From: a virus | Reading direction: 5' to 3' (one strand) | DNA length: 64,000 bases | IMG/VR virus record: IMGVR_UViG_3300044620_001883 | Coordinates: 124,001 to 188,000 of that record | Part shown: one piece after another, positions 6,344 through 48,714 of the stretch | Layout: each line of letters starts with the position of its first letter | How positions within the stretch are numbered: the stretch's first letter is position 1 | Made by a program: the position numbers and the translations under genes | The notes under the pieces: generated by a model | Databases searched by the model: none | What the model saw: the letters and a program-made list of their open reading frames with translations, nothing else | What the model was told of the DNA's origin: nothing

Positions 6344-9049
6344 ATGTTGTCCCTGCTCGCCCCACCCATCGTCAAGTCCTCGAGTGCCCTCCCGGTTCTC
6401 GAACGGGCGGCAGGCAAGATCCAGGATGCCGTGGACCCTGCTCCGCTCGAGAAGGCCCCCGCGACGGCCCGTCCTGAATCCAAGAGGCACCGGGAGGCTT
6501 TGGTGGATGAAGCAAGGGTGCGGCACTACCAGGACCAACCTTTCAGTACATCTGCCATGCTAGGTGGTGGGCTCGGTTTGAGTGTGCCGTGGGTGCTGGC
6601 TGCCATCATGGCTCCCAAGATGTACCGGAATAATGCCGACATTGGTAGGCTGGCACAGCTCTCGGCAGCCGGTGGGCTAGTCGGGACCGGGACAGGTCTG
6701 GGTGCTGAAGCACTAGGACGCCTCTTGACCCGTGGGTTCGGTCCCAATTTCAAACCTTCGCAGTGGCACCGGGACCAGGATCCTCACCGCTGGAACAGTG
6801 CACTCCGGACTGCCCCCATCGCGGTGGCCACGCTGGGTGGTAAAGCACTGTCGACCATGTTTCGGGAGATGCACAAGGATGCCAGCAACGACCAGGATCT
6901 TCGGAGCCGTATCGCAGCTGCGTACAAGCAGGTCACAATCCCTGACCTGAAGGCCATCGAGCACGGTCAGTACCAGAAGGGTCACTTCTCCTGGAAGGGT
7001 CTCGGTATCACGATCGAGTCTGCCCCTGGTGCAGTGCGGCGTGGGGTCGATAAGGATGGGACGGAGTGGTCCGTGAAGCTCAAGAATGCCTACGGGTACA
7101 TCAAGGGCACCACCAGCGCAGAACCCGGTGACCAGATGGATGTCTTCATGGGTCCACATCCCGAGAGCGAGATCGTGTTTGTGGTGGACCAGAACAAGCA
7201 GAAGACCAAGACCTTCGATGAACACAAGTGCGTCGTAGGCTGCCGTACTGTTGCTGAAGCGAAGGAGCTGTACATCAAGAACTACTCGGAAGGCTGGACC
7301 GGCTTCCGGGACATCACACCCATGACGCTACCCCAGTTCAAGTCATGGCTAAAGAAAGGGGACATGACCAAGCCACTGGCCGGGCAGCAGTTCCAGGATT
7401 TCCACAAGCAGGCCACAAATTCGCTGGTCAACATTCTACCAAGCTCAGATATTTCCATCATGCACACTAGCCTCACACCCGCCCCCTGGACCAAGCAAGC
7501 CATCAATCTCAAGGGGGTCCTTCCTGCTCTCAAGGGCATGTTCAGCCGCACACCAGGTGCGGTCGGTGCGACTGAGGGGGCTACTGCAGCGCCGGCCGCG
7601 GAGAAGCTCCGAAGCTTCCTAGCTGGCGGAGGCAACCTGCGACCAGGGGAGTACGAGCGCGTTGCCCTGCAGCACCCGGAGCTCATGGCTGAGTTCCCTC
7701 GCATCCGTGATGCCGTGAATCTGGCTGACGTTCGGCGGATGATCGGCACTGGTCCTATTCCTGGCGCGTTTCAGGGGGGTGTTGGTAATCAGGTAGCACA
7801 GACGCTGATCGGTGGTGGAGCTGGTGCGGGGCTTGGTCTCGCTGAAAACAGTTTCACGGACATGGGACCGGACATGCAGAAGAACAACCTGATTGCCAAT
7901 ACGGCCTTAGGTCTGTTGGCAGGCAACCCAATCGCGCGGCAACGTATGCTCAAAAAGGTGTTCACGGATCCTGCTACTGGTCTCCGGAACATTGGGTACA
8001 ACCCGAAGGCCTTAATGGGTGCCAGTACAGGCCTCATCGGCAAGACATCCCTGCTGCTTGGTGGTGATAAACTGTTTGGTACTCTTGACAACCTGCGAGC
8101 CGGTACAGGCAAACTCACCAGCACCGCGACCAAGCTCGATTCCAAGATGGACAAGGCTGAGAACAGTATTGCCAAGAACTTCAAGGAGCCGTTCGAGAAG
8201 TTGGAGAATTCTTCCAAGGAGCTGGGCGGCAAGCTGATGGACTCAGGCTCTAAGTTGATTGCTGGAGGCCGCCCGTATGTTGGGGGCATTGGTGGTGCAT
8301 TCCTGGGCAATATGGTAGGCCAGTACTTCGAGGACGAGAAGCGGGTCTCTGCCGAGGAGGCCAAAAGACAGAAGCGCAATCGTATCCTGCTCACACTGCT
8401 CGGCGGCGCTGCAGGTGCAGGACTCGGATCGGCCGACCAGAACACTCTCCCGGATACGCTTCGCCGTCTCCAGGGTGGTTGGCAAACAGCAAAAGGTACG
8501 GCAGCAGATCTGTACAACAAGGTGACCAAGCAGGCCAATCTGGAGACTTCATTACCAGACGCTCTGAAACTGTTCGGCGTAAACTCCGAAGCCGCCACAC
8601 CAGATACTGTGGCGGCTCTCAAGGAACTTGCTGTACTTTCGCAAAGCTCAGATCCTAGAGCGGCTGTGCATGCAGCATGGGCTGTTCCCACAGTCGAACG
8701 TGCCGTTGCGATGCCGCTTGGCGGTGCCGCACTTGGTGGAGCCGCTGGTGGATTGATCCAGATGCTGCGCGGGCACGGTGTGCGCGATAAGAAACGTCGA
8801 CCTTCTGTTGGTGCTGGAGTTGGTTGGGGTGGGGTAGCAGGTGGGTTGCTTGGTGTCCTGGCTGCCGCCGACGCACCACGCCAGGGCTGGAATGCTTCCC
8901 CAATGGGGCGTGCCATTGGCACCGTGCCGCTATCAGATGGTTTGAGGACCTACTGGCGGATGCTGAGCGGTAACGGTGCCGACACCGCCATCGAAGATGC
9001 TTTGAACGCCGCTGCGATCAATAAATGGATACCGAAACTGGCGCCATGA
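6344..9049 (+). CDS. Large virion-type protein with inorganic pyrophosphatase-like domain, 901 aa
   Basis: Residues 1-65 are polar. Residues 72-130 hold a glycine-zipper hydrophobic region. Residues about 208-338 match the InPase-like domain found in phage polyproteins: KGHFSWKGL, VRRGVDKDG, YGYIKGT (from 250), then GDQMDVFMGPHP with acidic residues D263 and D266, and FDEHK. The rest alternates glycine-zipper segments with coiled-coil-like stretches; the C-terminus has two more Gly/Ala zippers. Residues 376-386 carry a SLTPAPWTKQA motif shared with the protein starting at 11056. Probably an internal or ejected virion protein; pyrophosphatase activity is untested. ATGA overlap with the next gene. 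Confidence 0.75.
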   Translation: MLSLLAPPIVKSSSALPVLERAAGKIQDAVDPAPLEKAPATARPESKRHREALVDEARVRHYQDQPFSTSAMLGGGLGLSVPWVLAAIMAPKMYRNNADIGRLAQLSAAGGLVGTGTGLGAEALGRLLTRGFGPNFKPSQWHRDQDPHRWNSALRTAPIAVATLGGKALSTMFREMHKDASNDQDLRSRIAAAYKQVTIPDLKAIEHGQYQKGHFSWKGLGITIESAPGAVRRGVDKDGTEWSVKLKNAYGYIKGTTSAEPGDQMDVFMGPHPESEIVFVVDQNKQKTKTFDEHKCVVGCRTVAEAKELYIKNYSEGWTGFRDITPMTLPQFKSWLKKGDMTKPLAGQQFQDFHKQATNSLVNILPSSDISIMHTSLTPAPWTKQAINLKGVLPALKGMFSRTPGAVGATEGATAAPAAEKLRSFLAGGGNLRPGEYERVALQHPELMAEFPRIRDAVNLADVRRMIGTGPIPGAFQGGVGNQVAQTLIGGGAGAGLGLAENSFTDMGPDMQKNNLIANTALGLLAGNPIARQRMLKKVFTDPATGLRNIGYNPKALMGASTGLIGKTSLLLGGDKLFGTLDNLRAGTGKLTSTATKLDSKMDKAENSIAKNFKEPFEKLENSSKELGGKLMDSGSKLIAGGRPYVGGIGGAFLGNMVGQYFEDEKRVSAEEAKRQKRNRILLTLLGGAAGAGLGSADQNTLPDTLRRLQGGWQTAKGTAADLYNKVTKQANLETSLPDALKLFGVNSEAATPDTVAALKELAVLSQSSDPRAAVHAAWAVPTVERAVAMPLGGAALGGAAGGLIQMLRGHGVRDKKRRPSVGAGVGWGGVAGGLLGVLAAADAPRQGWNASPMGRAIGTVPLSDGLRTYWRMLSGNGADTAIEDALNAAAINKWIPKLAP

Positions 9050-9735
9050 GCAAAGTCTCACACATCAAGGTCTCAACAGCTCTTCTAGGTAAGGCACTAA
9101 ATGGAGTCTCGAAGGTCTTGACCCAAACAGGTAAGACGCTCCAGCAAGGCGCTCGCTTCGGGGCAGGAGTCCCGGCAGGTGAAACCTTCGCACCTTCGAT
9201 CGGTACTGCCGCGCGTCGTGTACTGAAGCTCGGTTTTAACCCGCAAGTCAAGGGTTGGTGGAACGTACCGAAGCGGATAGCACAAGGTGCGGGCGTCTAT
9301 GGTCTGGGTGCTAGTGTTGTGCAGGGTCGTGAAGCTGTCAAGGACTTGGCCCTGAATGCCAACCAATTGCTCCCACCGCATGAGAAACTTCAACCGTTGA
9401 AACAGTACACACAGGACCTGGCCGAGTCCCCAATCTGGACCACACTCAGGACAGCCATCATGGGTCTCCCCGAAACAGTTCCAGCTGGGCAGCGTGCGCT
9501 GCTCGGCAACGCTACTTACATTGCTGGTCGGAACGGGGTGGCTGACTGGTGGAACAATCTTGGTCGCGCTCCAGCGGCAACGGGCCCAGGGACTTGGCTT
9601 CGGCACGCCTATGCACCTGCTGTAGCACCTGCTGTCCAGGGTGTCCGAAGTGTACTGCCTAATATCCCACACGCGCCACCTAGCGCCTACGGGGATCTGT
9701 TCCGCTCTGCCCAGCAAGCTGTACGGGAATGGTAG
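9046..9735 (+). CDS. Virion-type protein with HIxVS motif, 229 aa
   Basis: Starts MSKVSHIKVSTALLGKALNG; residues 6-17 are one of four copies of the HIxVS[ST]xLLK motif in this block. The start at 9046 is fixed by ATGA overlap. The rest is Ala/Gly/Pro-rich with no recognised domain. Likely a partner of the 901-aa protein in the virion, inferred from the operon. Confidence 0.65.
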   Translation: MSKVSHIKVSTALLGKALNGVSKVLTQTGKTLQQGARFGAGVPAGETFAPSIGTAARRVLKLGFNPQVKGWWNVPKRIAQGAGVYGLGASVVQGREAVKDLALNANQLLPPHEKLQPLKQYTQDLAESPIWTTLRTAIMGLPETVPAGQRALLGNATYIAGRNGVADWWNNLGRAPAATGPGTWLRHAYAPAVAPAVQGVRSVLPNIPHAPPSAYGDLFRSAQQAVREW

Positions 9736-9758
9736 AGTACGATGTTGCACGCCAAACA

Positions 9759-9787
9759 TTGACCCGCTCACCATCTCTGCGTAACAG
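9759..9787 (+). promoter_or_regulatory. Possible sigma70-type promoter
   Basis: TTGACC at 9759-9764, a 17-base spacer, then TAACAG at 9782-9787, in the gap before the holin candidate. The -35 is good and the -10 weak. Confidence 0.3.
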
Positions 9788-9795
9788 TACTCATC

Positions 9796-10131
9796 ATGGA
9801 CCTACCCCCTTCTGTTCCTTCTGCTACTGATATTGATGCGCAGCATCTTGGTTACCTGGCCGTCGCAATGACGTTCGGGGCGCTCTCGGCTATGGCGGCT
9901 CTCCTGGGATCTGAGAGCCCTCTGACACCGCGCGTCGTGATGGCCTACCTACTTTCAGGCGGCCTCGCTGCTGGTGGTGTCGTATTGGTGCTTGTGGAAC
10001 AATACGGCTTCAATTATTTTCTGTGTGGGATCGGGATCTTCGCGGGCTACAAGGCCTTCGATCTCCTGGCCATGATCAGCATGGCCGTCTCCAGCTTCGT
10101 TAACAAATTCCTCTCCAAAAAAGGCCAATGA
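9796..10131 (+). CDS. Holin candidate, 111 aa
   Basis: Three hydrophobic segments (about residues 20-41, 46-70 and 75-98) and a basic tail ending KFLSKKGQ. Size, topology and the LTPRVVMAYLLSGGLAAGG segment resemble LydA-type phage holins, which form the inner-membrane lesion that releases endolysin. A short intergenic gap with a possible promoter precedes it, and it is ATGA-coupled to the PAS protein gene. A second holin candidate lies at 26650. Confidence 0.5.
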   Translation: MDLPPSVPSATDIDAQHLGYLAVAMTFGALSAMAALLGSESPLTPRVVMAYLLSGGLAAGGVVLVLVEQYGFNYFLCGIGIFAGYKAFDLLAMISMAVSSFVNKFLSKKGQ

Positions 10132-10733
10132 GCATTCTCGATCGCATGTCAAACCGCCGGCACTCCCTTGCGTCACTGCTTCACGCCACTCTGATATTTG
10201 TGGCACTGGGCGCGGCCATTCTGTTCTTCTACGAACAGCAGCGTTCAGAACATCTCGCGGCGCAGTTCAGAACTGCTGTGCGTGGGGCAGGCGCGGGACA
10301 GTGGTATTGGGACATTGAAAAAAACATCCTCAGATGGGATGACCGCATGTTCGAGTTGTTCCATTGCAGCAAGGCAGGCTGGGAGAACGTGGACGGCATT
10401 TGGGAATGGCGCGGATCTGCGACAGACGAGCCGGCCGCCAAGTTTGTCTCGACTCTGTACAAGGAGGATGTGCCGATGGTTATGGCAGCGTTACAGCGGG
10501 CGATCATGACGCGAAGCTCTTACCAGGCGGTGTTCCGGGTGGTGGGCACGGACGGCATCGTGTACTTCCTGAGAGCAGGTGGAGCGGTCTACGGGGGCGG
10601 CAGATACATGACCGGATTGTGTATACGGTTCTCTGCCGCCGACAAGCCCGGTGAGCTGGATATCAGCCACTGCTTTGAAGCGTGGCAGAACCACATGGCG
10701 CACGCGACTGAACTGGCTGGGTCGGCGCCCTGA
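10128..10733 (+). CDS. Membrane-anchored PAS-domain protein, 201 aa
   Basis: One transmembrane helix at about residues 14-35, then a PAS_3-like fold at 52-170. Visible blocks are GAGQWYWDIEKNILRWDDRMFELF (55-78, abbreviated pattern GxWxWDxxxxxLxWxxxxxELF), YKEDVPMVMAALQRAI and YQAVFRV with RYMTGLCIRF. These are the usual PAS beginning, helix and closing strands. No kinase, cyclase or DNA-binding output domain follows, so it may act by protein contact or as a bare sensor. ATGA-coupled to the holin candidate. Confidence 0.7.
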   Translation: MSILDRMSNRRHSLASLLHATLIFVALGAAILFFYEQQRSEHLAAQFRTAVRGAGAGQWYWDIEKNILRWDDRMFELFHCSKAGWENVDGIWEWRGSATDEPAAKFVSTLYKEDVPMVMAALQRAIMTRSSYQAVFRVVGTDGIVYFLRAGGAVYGGGRYMTGLCIRFSAADKPGELDISHCFEAWQNHMAHATELAGSAP

Positions 10734-10758
10734 ATTCTGGTTGCGCACACAGGGAGGC

Positions 10759-11049
10759 ATGGTGACCCTATCCAACATGGAAGCCAGCCAATCACCCACA
10801 TCTCCTGCGATGCACCGCATACCAGTCGGTGGGGCTGAACCTTTCCACTGGGCCCATGGTGGGTGCTGGTGCTTTCCGCTACAGCATTACTGTGAGGAAG
10901 CGCAGGCCACCTACATGCTCCACAACGCGCAGGATTGTCGGGAGGCATTTGAACGGCAGGGGCTCGATGATCCAACCAGACCCTGGGTTGCTGTCCTGGG
11001 TTATGTGGGAACTCCGGTTGACGTACCCAGCACAGTAATGGCAACGTAG
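10759..11049 (+). CDS. Hypothetical protein, 96 aa
   Basis: ATG at 10759 preceded by GGGAGG at suitable spacing, one of the few clear ribosome sites here. Cys/His/Trp-rich middle (HWAHGGCWC...HYC) suggests a metal site. Function unknown. Confidence 0.55.
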   Translation: MVTLSNMEASQSPTSPAMHRIPVGGAEPFHWAHGGCWCFPLQHYCEEAQATYMLHNAQDCREAFERQGLDDPTRPWVAVLGYVGTPVDVPSTVMAT

Positions 11050-11055
11050 TCGCAT

Positions 11056-12123
11056 ATGAGTCTAGCCCCCTGGTTCCACAAACAAGCTGGCGTTGGTGAG
11101 AGTGCCTTCAAGGCCCCCACTGCGGCGGCAGCCCCAGCGGCTTCAAATCCAGCGACGGCGCCGACGACACCAGCGGCGACACCGGGTGCAAGTAAACCCC
11201 CAGCAGCGACTCCTTTGGGTTCGGCTCCACCTCCGGCACCACAGGCTCCTTTGGGTGCGTTGCCCCCTTTACCCCCTCCCCCATTAGGTGCTGGTGCTCC
11301 ACTTCCTGACCCGTGGGGCGGTGGAACTCCAACCAGCACACCACCGCCGGCGGCACCTGTGGGTTCACTCCCGCCGTCAACCCTGGGAGCTGGAGACTCT
11401 GGAGGTACACCGTCACCTTCATATCCTGCTGCTTTGGGCGACCCAACCAAGACCACAATGCCGCCACCAGCCCCCGCCTTGGGGGGTGACACCTCATCTG
11501 TCCCGCCTGCCGCATCTCCTCCGGCTCCGGGTGGAACACCTCCACCCTCCCAGGTTCCTTCTGGTCACGAGTTTTCCACGATACCGGGCGCCCCAGGACC
11601 GGACGCCAAAACGGCATTTCCAGCAGACAGCCCGGAAGGGATCGCGGAACGAACTCGGCCTGGTGTCCTGCAGGATCGCGGCCTCGTCGCAGGTCCAACA
11701 GCTCCCCAGCAGATGGACCAACAACAGATGGACAACGCTGTTGGGAATTTGACAGCCGGAACTGGCTTCAACGGCAGTGCTACTTCCATGAAACCCGAGG
11801 ACGTGATGGCGCGCGCTACTGCCATCAATGACAAGTACCGGAAAGACAACCCAACGTTTGCAGCAGCCAACCCACATCCGGACGACCCGCGCAACAAGGT
11901 GGCCCACATCCAGGTCAGCACCCATATTCTCAAACGTGCGGCAGCAGTACCTTCCGTGGCTGCCGTGTCCTCCACCAAGCCTCCCGTGGGGCCGGTGATC
12001 CTGAACCCGAAGTTCCTGAGGGCTCTGCCCAAGCAGGCTCCAGCCAAACCCCCGGCGAAGCCAGCCAAGGATCCTGAACCCAAACCGGTTCCTGGTGCGG
12101 TCAAGAAAGCAGCTTGGTATTGA
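11056..12123 (+). CDS. Proline/alanine-rich virion-type protein with HIxVS motif, 355 aa
   Basis: Begins MSLAPWFHKQA, a motif also seen in the 901-aa protein. Residues about 15-180 are low-complexity Pro/Ala/Gly/Thr with recurring APLG/PPP units, probably an extended linker. Residues 284-295 are HIQVSTHILKRA, one of four copies of a shared motif. The tail is Lys/Pro/Ala-rich. No enzyme domain seen. Likely an internal or flexible virion protein; the long minus-strand open frame opposite is its shadow. Confidence 0.65.
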   Translation: MSLAPWFHKQAGVGESAFKAPTAAAAPAASNPATAPTTPAATPGASKPPAATPLGSAPPPAPQAPLGALPPLPPPPLGAGAPLPDPWGGGTPTSTPPPAAPVGSLPPSTLGAGDSGGTPSPSYPAALGDPTKTTMPPPAPALGGDTSSVPPAASPPAPGGTPPPSQVPSGHEFSTIPGAPGPDAKTAFPADSPEGIAERTRPGVLQDRGLVAGPTAPQQMDQQQMDNAVGNLTAGTGFNGSATSMKPEDVMARATAINDKYRKDNPTFAAANPHPDDPRNKVAHIQVSTHILKRAAAVPSVAAVSSTKPPVGPVILNPKFLRALPKQAPAKPPAKPAKDPEPKPVPGAVKKAAWY

Positions 12124-12153
12124 CTAGTACTCGCAGGGCCGGGACATTCCAGT

Positions 12154-12474
12154 ATGCCTGACGCCTCCAAACCTCCCAGCTGGATTGCCATGATCGGTGG
12201 CACGGTCATGGGGTTGTTAACCGGCAGCCTGACCATGTACACGTGGTTGGAGCACCGTATCGAGAGTAGGGTCGAAGCAAAGGTCATGATCGAAGTCAGG
12301 ATCTCGGCTATTGAGGCTGCCCTGAAGACCAACAAGGATGCAGCCTGGCTCGCGGATGAGAACCTCGTGAAGCGACTCGATATCCAGCAGGAGCGAATTA
12401 CACAACTGGTCAGCAAGATCGATGGACTGCACGTGACCGTCACACCAAGCGCAAGTTCAACTACACCCCCATGA
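12154..12474 (+). CDS. Membrane protein with coiled coil, 106 aa
   Basis: A transmembrane helix at about residues 8-30 is followed by a long charged helix with heptads (40-92) and a Ser/Thr/Pro tail. This layout fits XhlA-like lysis proteins or i-spanins; no family match is certain. ATGA overlap with the metallopeptidase-like gene. Confidence 0.55.
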   Translation: MPDASKPPSWIAMIGGTVMGLLTGSLTMYTWLEHRIESRVEAKVMIEVRISAIEAALKTNKDAAWLADENLVKRLDIQQERITQLVSKIDGLHVTVTPSASSTTPP

Positions 12475-13088
12475 TGTACAAACAGGCAGGACCAGTACAG
12501 TTGCTTGGCAAGTTGCTTGGGCGTGCAGCGCCTGCCGCGAAGGGGTTGGGGTCCTTCGAACGCTACCCTGCCTTGATGGCTGCGCGCCGCAAGACGATCG
12601 TGATCCCCAATGCTCGCGCCAGCTCGTTTCCAGGTCCTGACACTTGGGGCCAGTACCGTCCCAAGGATGACCTACTGCTAGTGCGCGGTGGGCTTTCGCC
12701 GACTGTAGCACGACAATCACTGCGGCACGAGCTTACCCACATGGCCCAAATCAAGGCACCACACACCTGGCTGGACAGAACTGTGCAGGCCGGCATATCT
12801 CAGCCGGGTAATAGCTTCAAGTCAGGCCTACGCAGCATCCTGGCTGAGTTCGGTGCCCGCACTGGAGAGACCAAAGGCCTGATGGCTCCTGTCAGAGGAG
12901 CATTGAAGTTGTGGGAGACCGCACCGTCCTATGCACGAGACTTCAAACGGTTGGGTGCCCGCGCGGCGGCCCTGCCGTACCAACTCCTGACTGCAGCCCC
13001 TATTGTCGGCGGACTGGCAACGGCAGGTGGTTTGGGTCTAAAGCTCAAGAGCCTGACGGACCAGCTCAACCAACCTAAGACACGATGA
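12471..13088 (+). CDS. Zincin-like metallopeptidase, 205 aa
   Basis: Contains RHELTHMAQ with the HExxH zinc motif at 86-90, and a downstream E126 in ILAEFGAR that could be the third ligand, as in gluzincins. Starts MMYKQAG, echoing the KQA motifs of neighbouring virion proteins. The C-terminus has a glycine-rich hydrophobic helix (about 168-192). Possibly a virion-borne protease that processes a host or phage protein, or degrades a barrier on entry. Substrate unknown. Confidence 0.6.
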   Translation: MMYKQAGPVQLLGKLLGRAAPAAKGLGSFERYPALMAARRKTIVIPNARASSFPGPDTWGQYRPKDDLLLVRGGLSPTVARQSLRHELTHMAQIKAPHTWLDRTVQAGISQPGNSFKSGLRSILAEFGARTGETKGLMAPVRGALKLWETAPSYARDFKRLGARAAALPYQLLTAAPIVGGLATAGGLGLKLKSLTDQLNQPKTR

Positions 13089-13163
13089 AGCCAGAGGCAA
13101 AAACACTTCCGCACGGTTTCTGACAAAACTTGCAGAGTGTCCCGCTTGTTGCGACAGTTGAGG

Positions 13164-13781
13164 ATGGCAACGCCGTTTCAACTTCTCTCTCACGTCAAAC
13201 GCGCAGGCGCGACCCCTCCCCCACCGGAAGGTAAACAGTACGACCTGCCCGTTCCGATCCCTCCAACATCCAAGACGGACAAAACCGTAGCAGCCTTGCC
13301 GCCTGGTAAGCAGTACGCGTTGCCGGTTCCGCCAACCCCGCAAGCCCCTACGCTTGCATCACCCATCCTGACACGCTCAGGACAACCAGCTCCGGCAGGT
13401 TGGGCACCTCCCAAACAGGAACTCCCACCCGTGCCGGTTCCTGCGGAGGTGCGGCAGGGTCTACCATCATTCGGGCAGTGGTTACAGTCGCGCGCGGTCG
13501 ATCTGTCAACAATGTTGGTCCCGTACCAAGCGCAGATCAATCAGGTCTTCGGACACAAGCAAGCTTCCCACATCCGCGTCAGCTCGTACTTGCTCAAGCG
13601 CGCGACCCTCGGAGCAGCAAAGTCCGTAGCTGGACAGCAGCCGGGACTCGGAGGGCATTTGAAGCAAGCGCCTAAGATGTTCCAACCACCCGCTGCACCG
13701 ACCGCTGTGCAGCCGACCCAGCCAACAGCGCCTGACTTCAAGATCAAAGCTCCTGCCGGGATCGCGGCAGCACGAGGCTAA
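13164..13781 (+). CDS. Proline-rich virion-type protein with HIxVS motif, 205 aa
   Basis: Two tandem GKQYxLPVP units (about residues 21-65) sit in a Pro-rich first half. HIRVSSYLLKRA lies at residues 136-147 (counting from the ATG), preceded by KQAS. ATG at 13164 was chosen; an upstream GTG at 13137 is possible. Same style as the 355-aa protein two genes upstream, so probably a paralogous or partner internal virion protein. Function unknown. Confidence 0.6.
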   Translation: MATPFQLLSHVKRAGATPPPPEGKQYDLPVPIPPTSKTDKTVAALPPGKQYALPVPPTPQAPTLASPILTRSGQPAPAGWAPPKQELPPVPVPAEVRQGLPSFGQWLQSRAVDLSTMLVPYQAQINQVFGHKQASHIRVSSYLLKRATLGAAKSVAGQQPGLGGHLKQAPKMFQPPAAPTAVQPTQPTAPDFKIKAPAGIAAARG

Positions 13782-13784
13782 TTT

Positions 13785-14792
13785 ATGAAACCGACGCACA
13801 TCCAAGTCAGTTCATACATGGTGAAGCAGGGATTGGCTAGGTGGCGTACTGCAAAGGCGTTGGCGGCTTTCATGCGCCGCCCACCAACACCGGCAATAAC
13901 GTCTAATATACATCCACCCAAGTGGGGAGATCCGACCCGCCTGACTCAGCTGCAAATAGCCAAGTCACATATGAGCTCGAACCCTTACGCACCAGCGCAA
14001 GAGATGTCAGGGCTGCTGAAGCAGGTAAACAAATTGGACGACGTGACACCGCTAGAGACACTCGGCGCAAACATGCTTCAGAATAAGCAAACTCCGGGTT
14101 CACTGTTTCGTGGAATGAGAACCTTAACTCCCAACATTGAAGCAGGTAGCTGGGTCCATGGAACTCCGTCCCCTGCTCTGGCCGCCAAGTACGGACCGAA
14201 TCGTTCAGCTCCCGCGTTGGTTGCTGAATACCAGGCAAGCCCACTTAATCGCTACAGCGCTGACTTTTTACAGGACATGGACGTCACCAAGCAAATGGGG
14301 CGTACTTGGGACAGTGTTGTTTCCGCGCTGCGTCAACCACCGAATTTGCGTGGCGATGCATTCGGCTTAGCCCGCACGAACAAGAATTTATGGGCGCGCC
14401 ACCAACTCAAGCTAGCTGACCCAAGAGAGTTGGTGACCGGCAAGGGACTGGAGCCGGCTGACAGCTGGGTACCTTGGTATGAGACCAAACTACAATCGGG
14501 TATCAACAATTTCCGCAATTGGGCATTTGTACATGACGGTAAACTGCTTCGCGTACCGGCAAATAAACAATGGCAGCACATACTGCGTAATATCACGTCC
14601 CCTGTGTACAAGGGATCGTGGGCCTCACGTATCCCGCAGGGGATGGAGCAGTTTATGGGGCGGCAGGGTTTTGAGTCAAGATTAGGTAGTGAATGGTTTA
14701 GAATTCAGGAGTACTTGCGTGGTGGGGTGGAAAAATTGAAACAGTTGTTACCCGCCCGTACGCCCCATGGCGCTGCTGCTCCCATGAAGTAA
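13785..14792 (+). CDS. Virion-type protein with HIxVS motif, possible ADP-ribosyltransferase fold, 335 aa
   Basis: Residues 5-16 are HIQVSSYMVKQG, again the shared motif, at the very N-terminus. Residues 107-137 (SLFRGM, then GSWVHGTPSPALAAKYG) recall the R...S/T segments of ADP-ribosyltransferase-like folds (LxRG; then T-S/P-A-xYG), but no clear ExE is visible. Codon use looks more A/T-rich than its neighbours, suggesting separate acquisition. It directly precedes the RNA polymerase gene. Confidence 0.5.
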   Translation: MKPTHIQVSSYMVKQGLARWRTAKALAAFMRRPPTPAITSNIHPPKWGDPTRLTQLQIAKSHMSSNPYAPAQEMSGLLKQVNKLDDVTPLETLGANMLQNKQTPGSLFRGMRTLTPNIEAGSWVHGTPSPALAAKYGPNRSAPALVAEYQASPLNRYSADFLQDMDVTKQMGRTWDSVVSALRQPPNLRGDAFGLARTNKNLWARHQLKLADPRELVTGKGLEPADSWVPWYETKLQSGINNFRNWAFVHDGKLLRVPANKQWQHILRNITSPVYKGSWASRIPQGMEQFMGRQGFESRLGSEWFRIQEYLRGGVEKLKQLLPARTPHGAAAPMK

Positions 14793-14828: not shown

Positions 14829-17800
14829 ATGGCCGACAAGACTAGACCAGATGTAATCGCCTTTGACCTTGATGGAACACTGGCCCTACGCCAGGAGCCC
14901 TTCAATCCGTACTCGGTAGGGGAACCCGTGGAGGCAATCTTGGACCTGGCCCTGAAGGCCATCCGGGATGGGAAGCGCACCTTGTGCTTCACGGCCCGCG
15001 CCAGTTCCAAGGATCCCAAGATGCACAGCACGGTGCGGAAGTGGCTCGATGATCACGGGTTAGAGAAGATGAAGATCACGAACATCAAGGATCCAACGAT
15101 AACCCGCTTCTACGATGACCGGGCCATCGGGGTCGTGCCAGACAAGGGCGAGCTTCTGACCAAGGTCGCGGCCGAGATGGTTCGGAAGACCAGGATGGTG
15201 GAAGTTCAGGATGACCACTGCCCACACTGTGACCACAAGTTTACCGAGAAGGGCTACCCGCGTCCTGACTTCGAACAGGCCGAGCGGGAAGGCATTGAGC
15301 CCATGGACGCTGACCAGCTGTGTCCCAACTGCCAAGGGATCGTGGATGACCCGGAGATGTCCGACGAGAGAATTGAGAACTACCAGGGCTTCGGCGGGGA
15401 ATCCATGAAGGAGATCCTGTACCAGCAGCGGGAGAAGAAGCGGGCTATCCTGGCTGCACGGCGGGCCAAGAAGGCCTCCACCTCGCCGGAGAACGTTTCC
15501 GTTCCAGGGCGAGGAGAGGAGAAGCAGGCCGCCGGGGACAAGCTCCGGAACCTGTGGGTACGTCGGGGTCAATGTCCCGAATGCGGTGGCAAGCCCAAGG
15601 ACTTCGAGTTCTTCAAGACCCACTCGAACGCGGAGTGTCGTGACTGCGGTCACAGCTTCGATGTCGATGCTGAACGTAAGAAGCAGGCTTCCTGGGACCA
15701 AGCCCAAGAGAAGTCCGCCTCAGTACAGATCGCAGGCCGTACTGGCCCGCATGGAATCCTGGAAGCCCTCAAGGCCCTGAACCTCGATGACCTCGAGAAG
15801 CAAGCCCGTGCTGACATTGCCTCCGGGAAGATCACCAAGCGTGACCGTGGGGTCAAGATGCTCAATGCCCTCGAAGGACTGCGCCGCAATGAGATCAAGC
15901 CCGAGGAGCTGATGATCAAGCGGGTGCCAGTGCTGCCACCGGCCTTCAGGCCCTTCTCGTTCCTGGGCACCACCTACATTCCCGGTGATGCCAACGAGCT
16001 CTACCAGGACCTCTTCAAGCACCGCGCCATCCATGACGAGACGCTCTCGACCCTGGGGGAAGGCGGCGCAGCCCTGACGCGCATGAATCTCCTGAATGCC
16101 ACGAGGGCCCTGTACGGTTACGGAGACCCCGTGTCCCCGAAGCTCAAGGAGCGTGGACCCTCGGGCTACTTGGACCAGATCCTCAACGAAGGGCCAAAGC
16201 ACTGCTACTCTGCAGACACAGAAATCCTGACGCGGGGTCAAGGGTGGGTGAAGTTCTCTGAACTGGAGCGTGGGGCGCAGGTGGCCACCATAAATCCCAA
16301 GACCCTGGCATTCGAATGGCAGACCCCTACGGAGTACATCGATTCAGAATACAGCGGTACCATGAAGCGGTTCGTAGTTGGTGGGCGTACAGGCAAGCGC
16401 ATGGACCTTTTGGTCACACCCAATCACCGGATGTGGACCAAAAAGCGCGACAAGAAGAATAAGATGACGGACGACAATTTGCGCACTGGTTGGTATGCGA
16501 TGCGGGCCGACGAGTTGGTCGCGCACAAAGTACGTCACTTCGCTATGGTGGGCGCAGGTGGTTGGGAGGGCTCGGTCGAACTGCCAGAGTGTGCACGCCA
16601 CTGGCCCGCTGAACTGTTTGCACGTTTTATCGGTTGGTACATTTCAGAAGGAAGCACACACGAATGTGGTACGATCGCTACAATCTGGCAGACCGAAGCA
16701 AACCCCGATTACTGCTTGGAACTAGACGCTTTGTTCCGAGACATCAGCAATGTACAAGAGGTGTCCAAAGTGAACATGCACCGGGAGGAGCCTCGCTTCA
16801 GCGGTTACGGTTGGAGCATCAAGGGATGTAGACCGTTGGTTGCATGGTTGGAACAGCATTGCGGCAAAGGTTCCAATTTCAAGCGCATACCTGCTCTAGC
16901 ACGTGATTGGAATCAGACCCTGTTGGGGTTGCTGTTCGACACCTACCTGAAGGGGGATGGCGCTAAGCGCGTTCCATGGCAGAAGCGTGCAAACGCGTCC
17001 GACAACTACCGGTTCCGTGATGCTCTTACAGATTCACATCATGCTTTCATTACCACAAGTCCAAAGCTGTTCGATGACCTGATGGAAGTAGGCTTCAAAC
17101 TTGGTATTTGTATCCGCCGTAGAAAAGAGCACCCGCATCTGTATCCAGAGCACCATGCTGAGAAGTACAATGGTGTGCTCATTGGGCGCTGGTTCGTTCA
17201 AACCGAGTCGAACGGGACAGTTCAGGATGTGCAGTACAACGGTCACATTTATTGTGTCGCTGTACCTAACGGGCTGCTTGTGGTGCGCCGCAACGGTGCC
17301 GCCGTCGTCAGTGGTAACTCCTTCGTTCAACGCCGGCTCCTTTCCAAGCCCATCGACAACGTGGGCCGCAGTGTCATCACGGTCGATCCAGACCTGGGCC
17401 TCGATGAAGTCTCGATCCCCCGTGAGATGGCCTGGACGCTCGCCGGTTCCAAGGTACAGCGGCGGCTGGCCATGATGGGCATGAGTCCCGCCCAGACCAT
17501 CAAAGCCGTGAAGGACCGTGACGCCTTTGCCAGCCGCACCCTGGAGCTTGAGCTGAAGGACACACCCTTCATCCTTTCCCGCGCTCCAGCCTGGCACAAG
17601 TTCAACGCCGTCGGGCAGTATGCCCGGATCCACGACGGTCCGCACATTGCCATCAACCCCTATATCACGGCCGGTCAGAACGCCGACTTCGACGGGGACC
17701 AGATCAACGTCTCCCTGCCGGTCCTGCCAGAATCCATCAAGGAGACCAAGGAGAAGTTGATGGCCAGCAAGATGCTGTTCTCCATCAAGAACCAGGACGA

Positions 17801-17960
17801 CGTGGTCCCGGTGCCTAAGCATGAGCAAATTTTAGGCATCTGGAATGCCAACAAACGTCCGCCTACGAAGCTGCACAGCTTCGCTTCAGGACAGGAAGCG
17901 CTTGCGGGTATGCAGAGCGGCGCTGTAAAGTTGGAGGACGACATTGAAATTCCGGACTAG
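14829..17960 (+). CDS. RNA polymerase beta' subunit, N-terminal half, with HAD domain, zinc ribbons and intein, 1043 aa
   Basis: Residues 1-125: HAD-like domain (D13 and D15 in FDLDGT, FTAR at 54-57, DD at 96-97). Zinc ribbons: C131/C134/C165/C168 and C249/C252/C270/C273. From about 307 it follows bacterial beta': a GPHGILEALK helix, RVPVLPPAFRPF (365-376), then after the intein FVQRRLLSKPIDNVGRSVI (the FRQNLLGKR-VDYSGRSVI equivalent), and NADFDGD at 951-957, the Mg-binding active-site motif. It ends soon after the double-psi-barrel part, so the rest of beta' lies in another gene at 35844. The conventional beta' N-terminal clamp region is absent or replaced. No partner beta gene is in the window. 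Confidence 0.9.
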   Translation: MADKTRPDVIAFDLDGTLALRQEPFNPYSVGEPVEAILDLALKAIRDGKRTLCFTARASSKDPKMHSTVRKWLDDHGLEKMKITNIKDPTITRFYDDRAIGVVPDKGELLTKVAAEMVRKTRMVEVQDDHCPHCDHKFTEKGYPRPDFEQAEREGIEPMDADQLCPNCQGIVDDPEMSDERIENYQGFGGESMKEILYQQREKKRAILAARRAKKASTSPENVSVPGRGEEKQAAGDKLRNLWVRRGQCPECGGKPKDFEFFKTHSNAECRDCGHSFDVDAERKKQASWDQAQEKSASVQIAGRTGPHGILEALKALNLDDLEKQARADIASGKITKRDRGVKMLNALEGLRRNEIKPEELMIKRVPVLPPAFRPFSFLGTTYIPGDANELYQDLFKHRAIHDETLSTLGEGGAALTRMNLLNATRALYGYGDPVSPKLKERGPSGYLDQILNEGPKHCYSADTEILTRGQGWVKFSELERGAQVATINPKTLAFEWQTPTEYIDSEYSGTMKRFVVGGRTGKRMDLLVTPNHRMWTKKRDKKNKMTDDNLRTGWYAMRADELVAHKVRHFAMVGAGGWEGSVELPECARHWPAELFARFIGWYISEGSTHECGTIATIWQTEANPDYCLELDALFRDISNVQEVSKVNMHREEPRFSGYGWSIKGCRPLVAWLEQHCGKGSNFKRIPALARDWNQTLLGLLFDTYLKGDGAKRVPWQKRANASDNYRFRDALTDSHHAFITTSPKLFDDLMEVGFKLGICIRRRKEHPHLYPEHHAEKYNGVLIGRWFVQTESNGTVQDVQYNGHIYCVAVPNGLLVVRRNGAAVVSGNSFVQRRLLSKPIDNVGRSVITVDPDLGLDEVSIPREMAWTLAGSKVQRRLAMMGMSPAQTIKAVKDRDAFASRTLELELKDTPFILSRAPAWHKFNAVGQYARIHDGPHIAINPYITAGQNADFDGDQINVSLPVLPESIKETKEKLMASKMLFSIKNQDDVVPVPKHEQILGIWNANKRPPTKLHSFASGQEALAGMQSGAVKLEDDIEIPD
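16203..17318 (+). mobile_element. Intein with LAGLIDADG endonuclease in beta' N-half, 372 aa
   Basis: Residues 459-830 of the host protein. It opens with Cys (CYSADTEI, the intein start block), and has LAGLIDADG-like repeats FARFIGWYISEG and LLGLLFDTYLKGDG. It ends with the intein signature YCVAVPNGLLVVRRNG...VVSGN followed by Ser831. Insertion is directly in front of FVQRRLL, one of the most conserved beta' stretches. Being in frame, it should be removed by protein splicing. Its base composition looks more A/T-rich than the exteins. Confidence 0.85.
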
Positions 17961-17969
17961 CCTGACCCC

Positions 17970-19970
17970 ATGACCTTTTTACCACGTACATTACTGAAGC
18001 TTGCCACTGTCGACAACACGGCAAGCTATGATCCGGCTAAGGGAATGCCAAGTCCTGTGGTGACACCAGGCACGGATGATCCCAATGAGATCGTCACAAG
18101 ACTGCCCGCTCCTGCGCCGACGACAACGACAACCACCACGCCAACTACCACCGCAACCACCACGCCAACCACCACGCCAACTACCACCGCACCAAACAAC
18201 GGTGCTCCCACTTCGGCTCCGGTTGGCAACGCCGCTTTTGCAGGTAATGCTGGCACACGTCCCAACGTCTCCACTTGGGAGCCGGGCAACGGAGGTCTGG
18301 CAGTTCCGGTTGGCGACCCTGCGGATTTCAAGGCCATGTCGCGACCAGATCTCGCGAATTTTTACAAAGGCTGGGGTGGGCGGGCCTACACGGACCGTGC
18401 GCCAGGAACAGTGGGCACACCAGTTCAGCAAATGGGCAGTGCGGATCTGTACAGCCCGACACCAGGGAATCCTGGAGGGACACATGTCAGCGCCACTATT
18501 GATCCAGAGAGTTCCCTTCGTAAAGGTGGGGATCCCAACAAGCGTGTCCTGAACTCCCAGTACGGAACTGGGAGTGTGACATTCAACAATCCCTCAAACT
18601 GGGCCACGGCCCCAGACCGCAAGACCGTCATTGATGGTAAGACCTACACAGGCCCCAATGCCTTCCGTGACCATCTGGAACCGATCGTGGCGAAGCAGCA
18701 GGAGGCGGCCAAGACACAAGCTGTCGCGGAGGTCGACAAGGCCAACCCTGGGTACTTGTTCAAAGGACCTGCAATGGCAGACCCACGTGGACCGGCCTAT
18801 CCGGATGTGCCAAACCTGCGTAACCAAACCATGGCGGGTTCCCGTATTGGAGATTCGCCTTATCAGTCCCTCACGGATCCAGATCGCGTGAACCCCGCGA
18901 TCGGCATCTCGGAAGGACGCCAACAGTACATCAATGATCTTGGTTCTTTGAACCTACCCGCGCGTGTGCCTGCTCCACAGCAGTTGTTGGCTGGAGGCAA
19001 ACCTGGAGGCAAACCTGGAGGCCAGCCCGCCGCAGAGCCCTATACGTCAATGCCTGTGAATCCGCAGTTCAAGGTTCCTAGTACCTTTGATCCATCTCGG
19101 AATACATTTATTTCATCAAACAGGCCAGGTAGTTATGATCCAGCATTAGCGGCGATGCGGGAAGGCGACCCGTTTGGTGCGAACGTCCATGGACAGCCTT
19201 CGCATTCAGGGAGAAAGCTGACAGGATTTGAATCAGACGCGGCGGCCACCAAGGACTGGGCAGCGAATCCAGTAGAGCCGAAGCTTCTGAAGAAACAGAG
19301 TAATACTGTTTCTCCTTTGGATGATCCGAATTCCTTGCTTAACCTGGACACGTCGGGACCGCTGATTCGGGAGCTTCCGGCCAAGCCTGCATCACCAGTA
19401 GCTGCGGCCAAGCCTGCATCACCCCCAGCCGTTGTCACTCCAAAGCCTGCTGCTCCAGCAACACCGAAGGTAGATGATTCACTCGGATGGGAAGCCGCTA
19501 CGCCGCCCCCAAATGCTTCAGCTCCCAAGCTAAAACCAAGTGACAGCGGTACACTCGGTTGGGAGTCTGGCCCTATGCCTCCCACACAAGGACAGCAGGA
19601 TGCGGCGAACATATTGAGGAACCAAGGTAACACGGAATTCCGTCTCCTCAACAACTGGCCAGGGAGTGATTGGGATCACCTGAAGAAGCAATTCCCAGAA
19701 GTGAAACCTGAGCAGTACAGGACAACAAATGCGCTCATTGATGCTTATCGAGCAGTCCTGCCGCCAGTCAAATCTGGTGCCCTCCACTTCGCGCTCCAGT
19801 GTTCCAAGTTCGCCAGTGCGATCATGCACACCCCCACCGGCCTTGAACCTCAGGGTGGGCTCGCAAAGCCGAAGATCAAGATGCCAATTGGCCCGGGGCG
19901 TCCGCAGGTCGCATTCGAGCACGCCGCCCCCGCCAAGCCCTCCATAACCCCTCTCACTCCTGCCTCATGA
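17970..19970 (+). CDS. Pro/Thr-rich virion-type protein, 666 aa
   Basis: The N-terminal third has a long Thr/Pro low-complexity stretch (about residues 48-76). The middle is Pro/Gly-rich with GGKPGG repeats. Two LGWE[AS] units flank a Pro-rich linker near residues 498-535. The C-terminus is more globular (about 545-610) and contains HFALQCSKFASA, a weak echo of the HIxVS motif. No enzyme recognised. It follows the polymerase gene by 9 bases and overlaps the next by ATGA. Confidence 0.6.
   Translation: MTFLPRTLLKLATVDNTASYDPAKGMPSPVVTPGTDDPNEIVTRLPAPAPTTTTTTTPTTTATTTPTTTPTTTAPNNGAPTSAPVGNAAFAGNAGTRPNVSTWEPGNGGLAVPVGDPADFKAMSRPDLANFYKGWGGRAYTDRAPGTVGTPVQQMGSADLYSPTPGNPGGTHVSATIDPESSLRKGGDPNKRVLNSQYGTGSVTFNNPSNWATAPDRKTVIDGKTYTGPNAFRDHLEPIVAKQQEAAKTQAVAEVDKANPGYLFKGPAMADPRGPAYPDVPNLRNQTMAGSRIGDSPYQSLTDPDRVNPAIGISEGRQQYINDLGSLNLPARVPAPQQLLAGGKPGGKPGGQPAAEPYTSMPVNPQFKVPSTFDPSRNTFISSNRPGSYDPALAAMREGDPFGANVHGQPSHSGRKLTGFESDAAATKDWAANPVEPKLLKKQSNTVSPLDDPNSLLNLDTSGPLIRELPAKPASPVAAAKPASPPAVVTPKPAAPATPKVDDSLGWEAATPPPNASAPKLKPSDSGTLGWESGPMPPTQGQQDAANILRNQGNTEFRLLNNWPGSDWDHLKKQFPEVKPEQYRTTNALIDAYRAVLPPVKSGALHFALQCSKFASAIMHTPTGLEPQGGLAKPKIKMPIGPGRPQVAFEHAAPAKPSITPLTPAS
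18112..18200 (+). repeat. Thr/Pro-coding low-complexity tandem repeat
   Basis: Repeats of ACCACCACGCCAACT-like units encode a Thr/Pro tract, likely an extended linker. Confidence 0.7.
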
Positions 19971-45993: not shown

Positions 45994-47490
45994 ATGCAAC
46001 CCTCTCTTCTGCAGCGTGAATCTGGCATATCCAAGACCTTCATGGCCCATGACTGGCCAGGACTCGTGGAAGACATGTCAGGGCATCTGACGACATTATT
46101 CGAACGCGGACATATCAAGACTGCCGCGTCGGATCTGTTCAGTCGCAAGGACCTCGACGACCATGCCCCGCCGCCTGGGTACTTTATGATCCATCAGACC
46201 GTGATGGGATCCGAGGAAGGTTACGGATTCAACAACAACGGCGACAGCTACCCGGACGAGACGTTGAAGCGCGACCACCCGACATTCGTCACACACGGCC
46301 GCGTGTACCGGGAGCACCGCAACCGCGACCCCGAGAAAGCCATTGGGGTCATCAAGGCCGCGCGTTACTCGCAGAAGATGCAGCGCGTTGAACTCCTCAA
46401 GCACCTGGAGATCAGCAAAGCCGAGAAGGAGTATGAGATGGCCAAGGCAGGCAAAGAACTGCATGCCAGCATGGCCTGCCGTGTCCCGTTTGACGTGTGC
46501 TCTTGCTGTGAGCAAAAGGCCAAGTACGCAAGCCTGTACTGCAGCCACCTCAAGGAACGCATGATGCAATGGATACCATCATTCAAGAAGTATGCGCATG
46601 CCCGCAATACGATCTGCACCTTCTTCGACTCCAGTGTCGTCGAGAACCCGGCAGCGCGCGAGGCCAAGCACATCGAGTATCGATTCGGCCCGGAACTCCT
46701 GAAGGCAGCCAGCACACGTCCGTCCTTCTCCGGCGCGCAGTGGGCCGAGTTTGAAGGTGTGGATCTTTCCCAACACCTCACCATGAACCAAACCGAGACG
46801 TCTATCCTGCAGAAGCTGGCCAGCATTGAAGCATCGAACGCCCCCGACAGGTATCGGGACAACGTGTCCATGCATGGCTTCGCGAACACACACAACCTGC
46901 GGGATGAAGAGTGGGCGGCAGTGCAAAAGCTGCTGCCGGGTACATTGTTCAATAAACTGGCACGGCGGCGTGTGCTGCTGCCCTTTGATCTGTTTGCCGC
47001 GTACGCGACAGGACGCAATCCGTCCGAGATCCGGAGCGACGCGGACTTCACCAAAGCAGCCAGCATGCTTCCGGGGATTTTCCGGGCGCTGGCCAGCGCG
47101 CTTGAAGGCGGCTCCAGCGGTGGGGGTTGTGGCTGCAATCAAGAGGACATGGACATGTTCAGGGCTTCCTCCAATTCAGCCGCCGCCTTCGATCCCGGCA
47201 GCAGTGATGAGGTGGACAAGGTCATGGACAAAGCGACGGAACAGTTCAGCGCGGAGGCGGAACCGATTCGTCGTCGCGCCATTGTGATGATCACAATCAA
47301 GAAGGCGCAAGCCCGTGGTCCTGTACTTCCAGCACCGGCACCATTGGATCTTCCACCTTTGCTGTCGTTGTACGGGTTGTACAAAATAGCGGCTGTGCGC
47401 GACATGCTGCACCTCGCGCAGGACAACAAACAGGACGTCGAACACGAGCTGCTGCGATGCAGCGTTGACCAGAACTCCTTTGCACTTTAA
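45994..47490 (+). CDS. Prohead protease, 498 aa
   Basis: FNNNGDSYPDE, then VYREHRNRDP (His108) and ASMACRVP (Ser159), followed by CSCC and YCSHL. The N-G-D, H and S pattern matches the T4 gp21-like capsid-maturation protease group (catalytic His...Ser), which cleaves the scaffold and capsid proteins during head assembly. A long C-terminal extension (about 250-498) has a GGGCGCN segment. The gene directly precedes scaffold and capsid genes, as expected. Confidence 0.75.
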   Translation: MQPSLLQRESGISKTFMAHDWPGLVEDMSGHLTTLFERGHIKTAASDLFSRKDLDDHAPPPGYFMIHQTVMGSEEGYGFNNNGDSYPDETLKRDHPTFVTHGRVYREHRNRDPEKAIGVIKAARYSQKMQRVELLKHLEISKAEKEYEMAKAGKELHASMACRVPFDVCSCCEQKAKYASLYCSHLKERMMQWIPSFKKYAHARNTICTFFDSSVVENPAAREAKHIEYRFGPELLKAASTRPSFSGAQWAEFEGVDLSQHLTMNQTETSILQKLASIEASNAPDRYRDNVSMHGFANTHNLRDEEWAAVQKLLPGTLFNKLARRRVLLPFDLFAAYATGRNPSEIRSDADFTKAASMLPGIFRALASALEGGSSGGGCGCNQEDMDMFRASSNSAAAFDPGSSDEVDKVMDKATEQFSAEAEPIRRRAIVMITIKKAQARGPVLPAPAPLDLPPLLSLYGLYKIAAVRDMLHLAQDNKQDVEHELLRCSVDQNSFAL

Positions 47491-47544: not shown

Positions 47545-48714
47545 ATGAACCAGACCCCTATTCTATCTTCACAAGACCTTCGCAACCGCGTCGCCGAGTT
47601 TCGCGCACAGCGCAAACAGGCAGCGGACAGCGGTGCACCCCAGGATCCTACCCTTGCTGGTGTGACCACCATTCCGGTACAGCCTGACGCTGAAAATCCC
47701 AACAAGCTGCAGACACCGGGTGCCAACGGTACAAACAAAAAGGACGCTCAGCCCTCCGACAGTCTGCTGACCACCGACACCAATCCTTCTCCTTCCGGTT
47801 CGGGTGCCGTTCCTTCGCTCACAAACGGTACAGCCGCAGACACTGCCGCCACCGGGGTGATCGCCACCGCAACTTCGAAGTCGGCTGGGTTCCTTGCGAA
47901 CCTCAAGTCACTCTCGGCCAAGTCCACGGAACTGCATGCGCAGCTGCACGGCAAGCAAGCCTCCGCTCCGGCTCCGGCCGTTACTCCCACTCCCGCCGTG
48001 GAGGCAGTTCCTGCTGGTTCCCTGGAAGATGCGCTGAAACAGGCTTCGGAAGTTTTTGCCAGTGTGGGTGAGCTGGTCTGCGGTGACGCCGACGGCAAGC
48101 GCCTGGTGGAACAACTTCTCATCAAGCAGGCCGGTCAAGTCCAGGCCCTGCAGATGCTCAAGGAAGCCGAAATCGCTGCTGACGTGTACGCCCGTGCTGG
48201 TGCGATCCACGAAGAGCAGCGCGCCAAACAGGCCGCCGAAGACGCTGCTTTCCAGCAGTACTTTGGAAACCTCACACCGCTGGAACAGCATCGCATCACC
48301 AAGCTCGCTGCCATCCAGGAGCAGGACGCGCAGTTCCTTGCGTCGGAAGACGACGCCTTCTGGTACACCAAAGGCGCCGCTGCGGCGCAGGCCGCCATGG
48401 ATCAGGCGGAGGCCGCCGGTGCGGAGCCCGACCCGTCCCAGATGGCTATGCCTGGCGGTGACGGTGGTATGCCTCCTCCCGAGGAGATCCTCCAGATTCT
48501 GGAGATGCTCGTTCAGTCCGGCAAAATCTCTCCTGAAGAGGCCCAACAGCTCATGCAGGAAATCATGGGTGCTGAAGGCGGTGCCCCTCCTGAAGGCGCT
48601 CCTCCTGAAGGTGCCGTGCCTGAAGGTGGCGACATCCCACCAAGCGAGGAAGAGAAGGCTGCCGCAGCCCGCCTCGCGCTCTGCGGTACGCACATCGTGC
48701 AGGTCCCGGCTTAA
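47545..48714 (+). CDS. Scaffold-like protein, 389 aa
   Basis: Helical, Ala/Gln/Glu-rich, with Pro/Gly/Glu repeats EGAPPEGA near 350. The N-terminal half is Thr/Ala/Pro-rich; the helical core spans about 160-300. Location between the protease and capsid genes and the composition fit a capsid scaffold or prohead core protein. Several KQA segments recur inside (e.g. GKQA, IKQA, AKQA). Confidence 0.55.
   Translation: MNQTPILSSQDLRNRVAEFRAQRKQAADSGAPQDPTLAGVTTIPVQPDAENPNKLQTPGANGTNKKDAQPSDSLLTTDTNPSPSGSGAVPSLTNGTAADTAATGVIATATSKSAGFLANLKSLSAKSTELHAQLHGKQASAPAPAVTPTPAVEAVPAGSLEDALKQASEVFASVGELVCGDADGKRLVEQLLIKQAGQVQALQMLKEAEIAADVYARAGAIHEEQRAKQAAEDAAFQQYFGNLTPLEQHRITKLAAIQEQDAQFLASEDDAFWYTKGAAAAQAAMDQAEAAGAEPDPSQMAMPGGDGGMPPPEEILQILEMLVQSGKISPEEAQQLMQEIMGAEGGAPPEGAPPEGAVPEGGDIPPSEEEKAAAARLALCGTHIVQVPA

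Follow-up and report, generated by a model that had tools for sequence, protein, structure and literature searches.

A Lys-x-Ala signal in phage head genes and a twelve-residue motif on four unrelated proteins: a putative prohead-protease site and packaging tag

Why do four otherwise unrelated proteins of one large phage carry the same 12-residue peptide, HIxVS..LLK.A? Their genes lie within bases 124001-188000 of virus record IMGVR_UViG_3300044620_001883 (200,255 bases), a stretch of 64,000 nucleotides that we call the window and whose numbering is used here unless genome positions are stated. The closest cultured relatives found were Salmonella phage Arash and Vibrio phage D69, and a second IMG/VR contig (the twin, 121 kb) is near-identical to the studied phage in the window region. 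The end of the motif looks like a K-x-A site that recurs across dozens of related phages, and the motif is therefore probably a packing and trimming tag. Taken as a whole, we think it reasonably likely that K-x-A, with a cut after Ala, is the prohead-protease site of this clade and that HIxVS..LLK.A is a lineage-specific packaging or processing tag on cargo proteins. The claim for the protease site is the stronger of the two and is very probable; the weaker claim, that HIxVS is a targeting signal, has about even chances.

Four copies of the motif

The pattern HI.VS..[LIVM][LIVM].[KRQ][AG] has four matches in the six frames of the window and zero further. All lie at the positions given by the original prediction and are in frame within coding open reading frames (ORFs) of the + strand, two of them N-terminal and two internal in Pro-rich proteins:

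9061..9096, + strand: tag copy 1, HIKVSTALLGKA, N-terminal, residues 6-17 of ORF 9046-9735; MSKVS precedes
11905..11940, + strand: tag copy 2, HIQVSTHILKRA, internal, residues 284-295 of Pro-rich protein 11056-12123; KVA precedes
13569..13604, + strand: tag copy 3, HIRVSSYLLKRA, internal in Pro-rich protein 13137/13164-13781, residues 136-147 from the 13164 start; KQAS precedes
13797..13832, + strand: tag copy 4, HIQVSSYMVKQG, N-terminal, residues 5-16 of ORF 13785-14792

The genes that carry these copies had been called consecutive; 4-5 other ORFs lie between the four (an arrow marks a presumptive cut):

9046..9735, + strand: 229-residue protein of no assigned family, tag copy 1; relatives in the twin contig only
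11056..12123, + strand: 355-residue Pro/Ala-rich protein, tag copy 2; K-x-A sites at P1 = 11, 283, 295, 328 and 352
13164..13781, + strand: 205-residue Pro-rich protein, tag copy 3; ORF opens at 13137; N-terminal MATPFQLLSHVKRA↓G
13785..14792, + strand: 335-residue protein of no assigned family, tag copy 4; relatives among viral and genome contigs, the twin only

The position of copy 1 follows from the ATG at 9046, which overlaps the stop of the preceding gene. None of the four proteins has a match in Pfam or PHROGs, the identical twin contig alone turned up when relatives were sought, and the 13785-14789 gene was not found in the four related records in which it was looked for.

Scored with a motif matrix, the four copies reach 39.7-42.5 and the next real peptide 12.8, while the best peptide of each of 20 shuffled proteomes scores 9.8-16.5; with each copy left out of the matrix in turn, the omitted copies scored 25.5-30.4 and non-sites at most 14.8. 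A possible fifth HIxVS-like tag, MNLPFRINLTTFIIKRA (genome 81200-81850, score 12.8), scores no higher than shuffled sequence can and was left out of the count. In the wider motif search that had been suggested, the DNA pattern CAYATHNNNGTNWSN returned over the whole 200 kb of the phage's own record the four copies plus three unrelated sites; a search of relatives for HIxVS gave chance matches only. DNA identity among the copies is 42-72% in the motif, 25-50% at third codon positions and 18-33% (chance) in the flanks. The flanks and the diverged third codon positions argue against a recent DNA duplication of the motif, and retention of the peptide despite that divergence indicates selection on the peptide.

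The C-terminal half of the motif, [LIM][LV]K[RQ][AG], fits a far broader K-x-A signal. A strict K-x-A ending is present in only two of the four copies, the 9061 copy ending in LLGKA and the 13797 copy in KQG, and K-x-[AS] stands directly before the motif in three (KVS↓H, KVA↓H and KQA↓SH).

K-x-A sites in head proteins

Expected counts for motifs of the K-x-A type were obtained from shuffles of the same proteins. In the head gene cluster of the studied phage (window ~39.5-51 kb) K.A[ASG] occurs 38 times against 5.9 expected (z=13.6), and in the module holding the four motif genes 17 times against 8.6. There are 21 (6.2 expected) at genome 57-70 kb; elsewhere in the genome counts are mostly near chance, with a slight excess at 1-20 kb and 70-124 kb. 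The same signal marks the clade: in 26 related contigs, with genes split as upstream or downstream of the capsid gene, the upstream genes hold 500 sites against 111.5 expected (z=38, a score that overstates independence because some of the contigs are closely related), and the downstream tail genes 40 against 30.6, no strong excess. In Arash, + strand genes have 54 sites (29.5 expected) and - strand genes 21 (26.3 expected), the excess being located in the head genes (28 against 6.6), in gp220-gp225 and gp242, all of which are in the table of virion proteins (PMC10585845).

Reversed or altered K-x-A motifs were not enriched in Arash, the 26 contigs or the phage's own head genes, and neither were the protease motifs of T4, SPN3US, phiKZ and herpesviruses in these head genes: in the phage's own, A-x-E occurs 8 times (7.3 expected) and S-x-E 15 times (13.1 expected), and T4-like [LI].E[AGS] and herpes-like [VLI].AS are likewise without excess. 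Two phages with related proteases, Mycobacterium phage Myrna and Rhodococcus phage E3, have no excess of K.A[ASG] (5 against 3.7 and 4 against 2.6), although Myrna has one of plain K.A. A stricter K[QRKLVI]A count on a cruder ORF set, which included some wrong-strand ORFs, gave weaker enrichment.

The head cluster encodes a candidate protease and two proteins with K-x-A sites:

45994..47490, + strand: candidate prohead protease with a T4 gp21-like fold (Foldseek); ORF opens at 45892
47545..48714, + strand: scaffold-like protein with 11 K.A against 3.1 expected; homologue L032:3724-4875
49857..50831, + strand: major capsid protein, HK97 fold (Foldseek E ~1e-9 to HK97-type capsids)
49953..49961, + strand: capsid KLA (K33-L-A35↓S), predicted propeptide cleavage site P3-P1; aligns with the invariant K-x-A of 59 relatives

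K-[EQ]-A is found near the N-terminus in each of the 59 capsid homologues examined, and the phage's own K33-L-A35 sits in a modelled N-terminal arm of low confidence ahead of the HK97-fold core. Searches of the PDB with profiles of the capsid and the candidate protease gave no relative by sequence, and it was fold comparison that gave matches; the best PDB hit of the candidate protease is 5jbl (T4 gp21; probability 1.00, TM-score 0.55 by target), and head maturation protease is one among its weak PHROG matches. Its H108 and S159 occur unchanged in all of 23 sequences and make a candidate catalytic pair. The gene order protease, scaffold-like protein, capsid is the same in the window and in Arash, where the positional counterpart of the scaffold-like protein holds six K.A[ASG].

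The logo of the sites, [LMF]-[EVT]-K-[QTIV]-A↓S, spans P5-P1' with Ser strongly preferred at P1', and resembles that of a protease substrate. A scan of 59,697 peptide windows with a site matrix derived from 20 other phages found 33 sites in the phage's own head genes (4.0 expected) and 15 in the module of the four motif genes (4.5 expected), with about chance numbers in most non-virion regions. The ends of tag copies 3 and 2 rank 97 and 118, both within the top 0.2%.

In relatives K-x-A also closes short N-terminal tags such as MNKYLEKIA and MKLSTLLYKQA, lying within the first 30 residues in 87 of 137 proteins encoded upstream of the capsid gene (29.9 expected). The studied phage has such tags too, with modest statistical support, among them these in the window:

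11080..11088, + strand: K-x-A site of short N-terminal tag MSLAPWFHKQA↓G, site score 9.5
12480..12488, + strand: K-x-A site of short N-terminal tag MMYKQA↓G of the HELTH-motif protein (12471-13088), site score 10.3
17997..18005, + strand: K-x-A site of short N-terminal tag MTFLPRTLLKLA↓T of protein 17970-19970

As a parallel to the HIxVS tags, neighbouring genes of a related contig (L034 4609-5429) open with tags that are almost the same, MANKYLEKIALN and MNRYLEKIALN. The HELTH-motif protein has a metallopeptidase-like motif, no Pfam match and weak relatives around the motif alone.

Weighing the explanations

We propose that K-x-A↓[SAG], in its fuller form the logo given above, is what the 45994-47490 protease and its relatives in a broad clade of large phages recognise and cut. 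As the head matures, this protease would take the N-terminal arm off the major capsid protein, chop the scaffold and trim cargo proteins. HIxVS[ST]xLLK[RQ][AG] would be a lineage-specific version of a tag that terminates in the protease site: its HIxVS part may serve to attach the protein to the scaffold or the inner shell, and its K-x-A end may be cut after encapsidation. A targeting role for HIxVS is suggested by its position in N-terminal tags and, since N-terminal K-x-A tags are common in relatives, it is best read as this lineage's own such tag. The original prediction had offered either a T4-like internal-protein tag or a prohead-protease site. Both gain partial support in modified form: the tag may be a lineage-specific element on proteins presumed to be packaged; the protease site fits the C-terminal K-x-A, common to the head genes of the phage and of dozens of relatives, but does not extend to HIxVS, and half of the copies deviate from it. 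Conceivably, though at somewhat less than even chances, the picture is broader still: a clade of large phages that includes Arash, D69 and many uncultured members would have a prohead protease cutting after Lys-x-Ala, and lineage-own tags would load and release packaged cargo, the virion RNA polymerase included, with HIxVS as the loading signal here.

Several observations weigh against these proposals. The ends of copies 4 and 1 rank at 358 and 1231-2828 of the 59,697, the former a partial fit with Gly at P1 (KQG) and the latter a misfit to K-x-A (LLGKA). HIxVS is conserved solely in the studied phage and its twin, and the cargo modules of the phage itself show no more than a modest excess of N-terminal K.A (p=0.049 and 0.016). 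The Foldseek E-value of the candidate protease is 0.014, and its C-terminal half is mostly modelled at low confidence. For Arash gp223, 100% peptide coverage is reported in virions (PMC10585845), which does not speak for removal, and published coverage percentages of this kind cannot locate cut sites.

K-x-A may be a protease site without HIxVS being a targeting signal, HIxVS being instead an extended part of the substrate or a peptide freed between two cuts (K-x-[AS]↓HIxVS...K-x-[AG]↓). In its favour, three copies have K-x-[AS] directly before them and terminate in K-x-A/G or KA, and an N-terminal targeting role is less natural for the two copies that are internal in Pro-rich proteins. Against it, copy 4 has no preceding K-x-A, 12 conserved residues exceed what a protease needs, and protease sites in relatives show no HIxVS-like preference upstream. 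We hold this explanation to be unlikely. Less probable again is that K-x-A is left uncleaved and is a short motif for binding to the capsid or the scaffold. Its recurrence in disordered Pro-rich segments, with many copies per scaffold, is docking-motif-like, but the logo straddles the presumptive bond with its Ser at P1', an invariant copy lies in the capsid N-terminal arm, the usual place of maturation cuts, and a gp21-fold protease is encoded in the operon. Finally, the four copies could be remnants of a small shared domain that spread by duplication long ago and plays no part in packaging. They are clustered in one gene cluster and homologues elsewhere were not found; against this, the peptide was retained between flanks of random identity while third codon positions diverged, a sign that selection acts on the peptide, and the C-terminal half of the motif coincides with the clade-wide site. 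We regard such an origin as very improbable.

Known systems and cargo candidates

Herpesvirus maturational protease sites are [VLI]-x-A↓S. They share Ala at P1 and Ser at P1' with the site described here, which differs in its Lys at P3. As proposed, the system would work much as T4 does in processing its internal proteins and SPN3US in head maturation. Like the motif described here, the capsid targeting sequence of T4 internal proteins, which gp21 cuts, is a short hydrophobic tag on unrelated proteins that ends in a head-protease site, a presumptive one in the studied phage, and the candidate protease of the latter has the gp21 fold. T4 tags are N-terminal propeptides of 10-20 residues, and T4 cleaves after Glu (PMC5694885). 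The phage's motif is present on several unrelated proteins, four in number, whose location inside the head is presumed, but half of its copies are not N-terminal and it ends in K-x-A/G instead of [LI]-x-E; given the different site and the internal copies, the motif is not classed as a capsid targeting sequence of the T4 type. The sites of SPN3US and phiKZ (A-x-E, S-x-E) also have P3 and P1 fixed, P2 free and Ser favoured at P1', but their P1 is Glu where that of the studied phage is Ala. The divergent SPN3US paralogues gp53 and gp54 have an identical 15-residue N-terminus that contains the cleavage motif (PMC5694885). In phage P1, an N-terminal signal of DarB sends this large injected protein into the head; no common consensus of Dar N-termini is reported, and the P1 capsid is cut after Glu (E120↓S121), unlike the K-x-A here (PMC9024508). 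The literature search found no K-x-A prohead site or YLEKIA tag, which is weak evidence of novelty as subscription journals were mostly outside it.

If the proposal is true, the site could be read from sequence alone and would give testable predictions of head entry and cut position for a large set of proteins that lack annotation, from dozens of uncultured phages. A specificity for Ala at P1, herpesvirus-like at P1 and P1', would then join the Glu-P1 sites of T4-, phiKZ- and SPN3US-type phages. Arash is cultured and mass spectrometry of it has already been done, which makes the cleavage claim checkable in a cultured phage.

Two further genes of the window encode cargo candidates:

6344..9049, + strand: 901-residue polyvalent-type protein, InPase domain at residues 205-337 flanked by K-x-A at P1 = 180 and 357
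14829..17960, + strand: RNA polymerase beta'-like protein with intein, K-x-A at P1 = 114-326, before the polymerase part; homologue of Arash gp206

The InPase domain of the former matches DarB-like PHROGs, a likeness to P1. In Arash virions no protein was detected at higher abundance than polymerase gp206 (PMC10585845). Other clusters with K-x-A excess lie at genome 57-70 kb, 12659-13696 and 75.9-82 kb, and their products are predicted to be packaged or processed. The head genes of Bacillus phage G (L104) have 10 K.A[ASG] against 3.1 expected, and the reach of the motif may thus extend beyond this clade.

Arash gp206, a virion RNA polymerase subunit of 1525 residues, corresponds in the studied phage to four separate ORFs spread over ~90 kb (window 14829-17960; genome 52932-54512, 54972-55622 and 79110-81203), which cover, in order, gp206 residues 28-232, 270-468, 485-1104 and 1147-1520. 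Relative to Arash, the 14829-17960 protein has an interruption of ~370-380 residues at residues ~459-830 that matches Hint/intein profiles, and the product of the second RNA polymerase gene of the window, 35844-38834, has an intein-sized interruption of the same ~370-380 residues at residues ~319-700.

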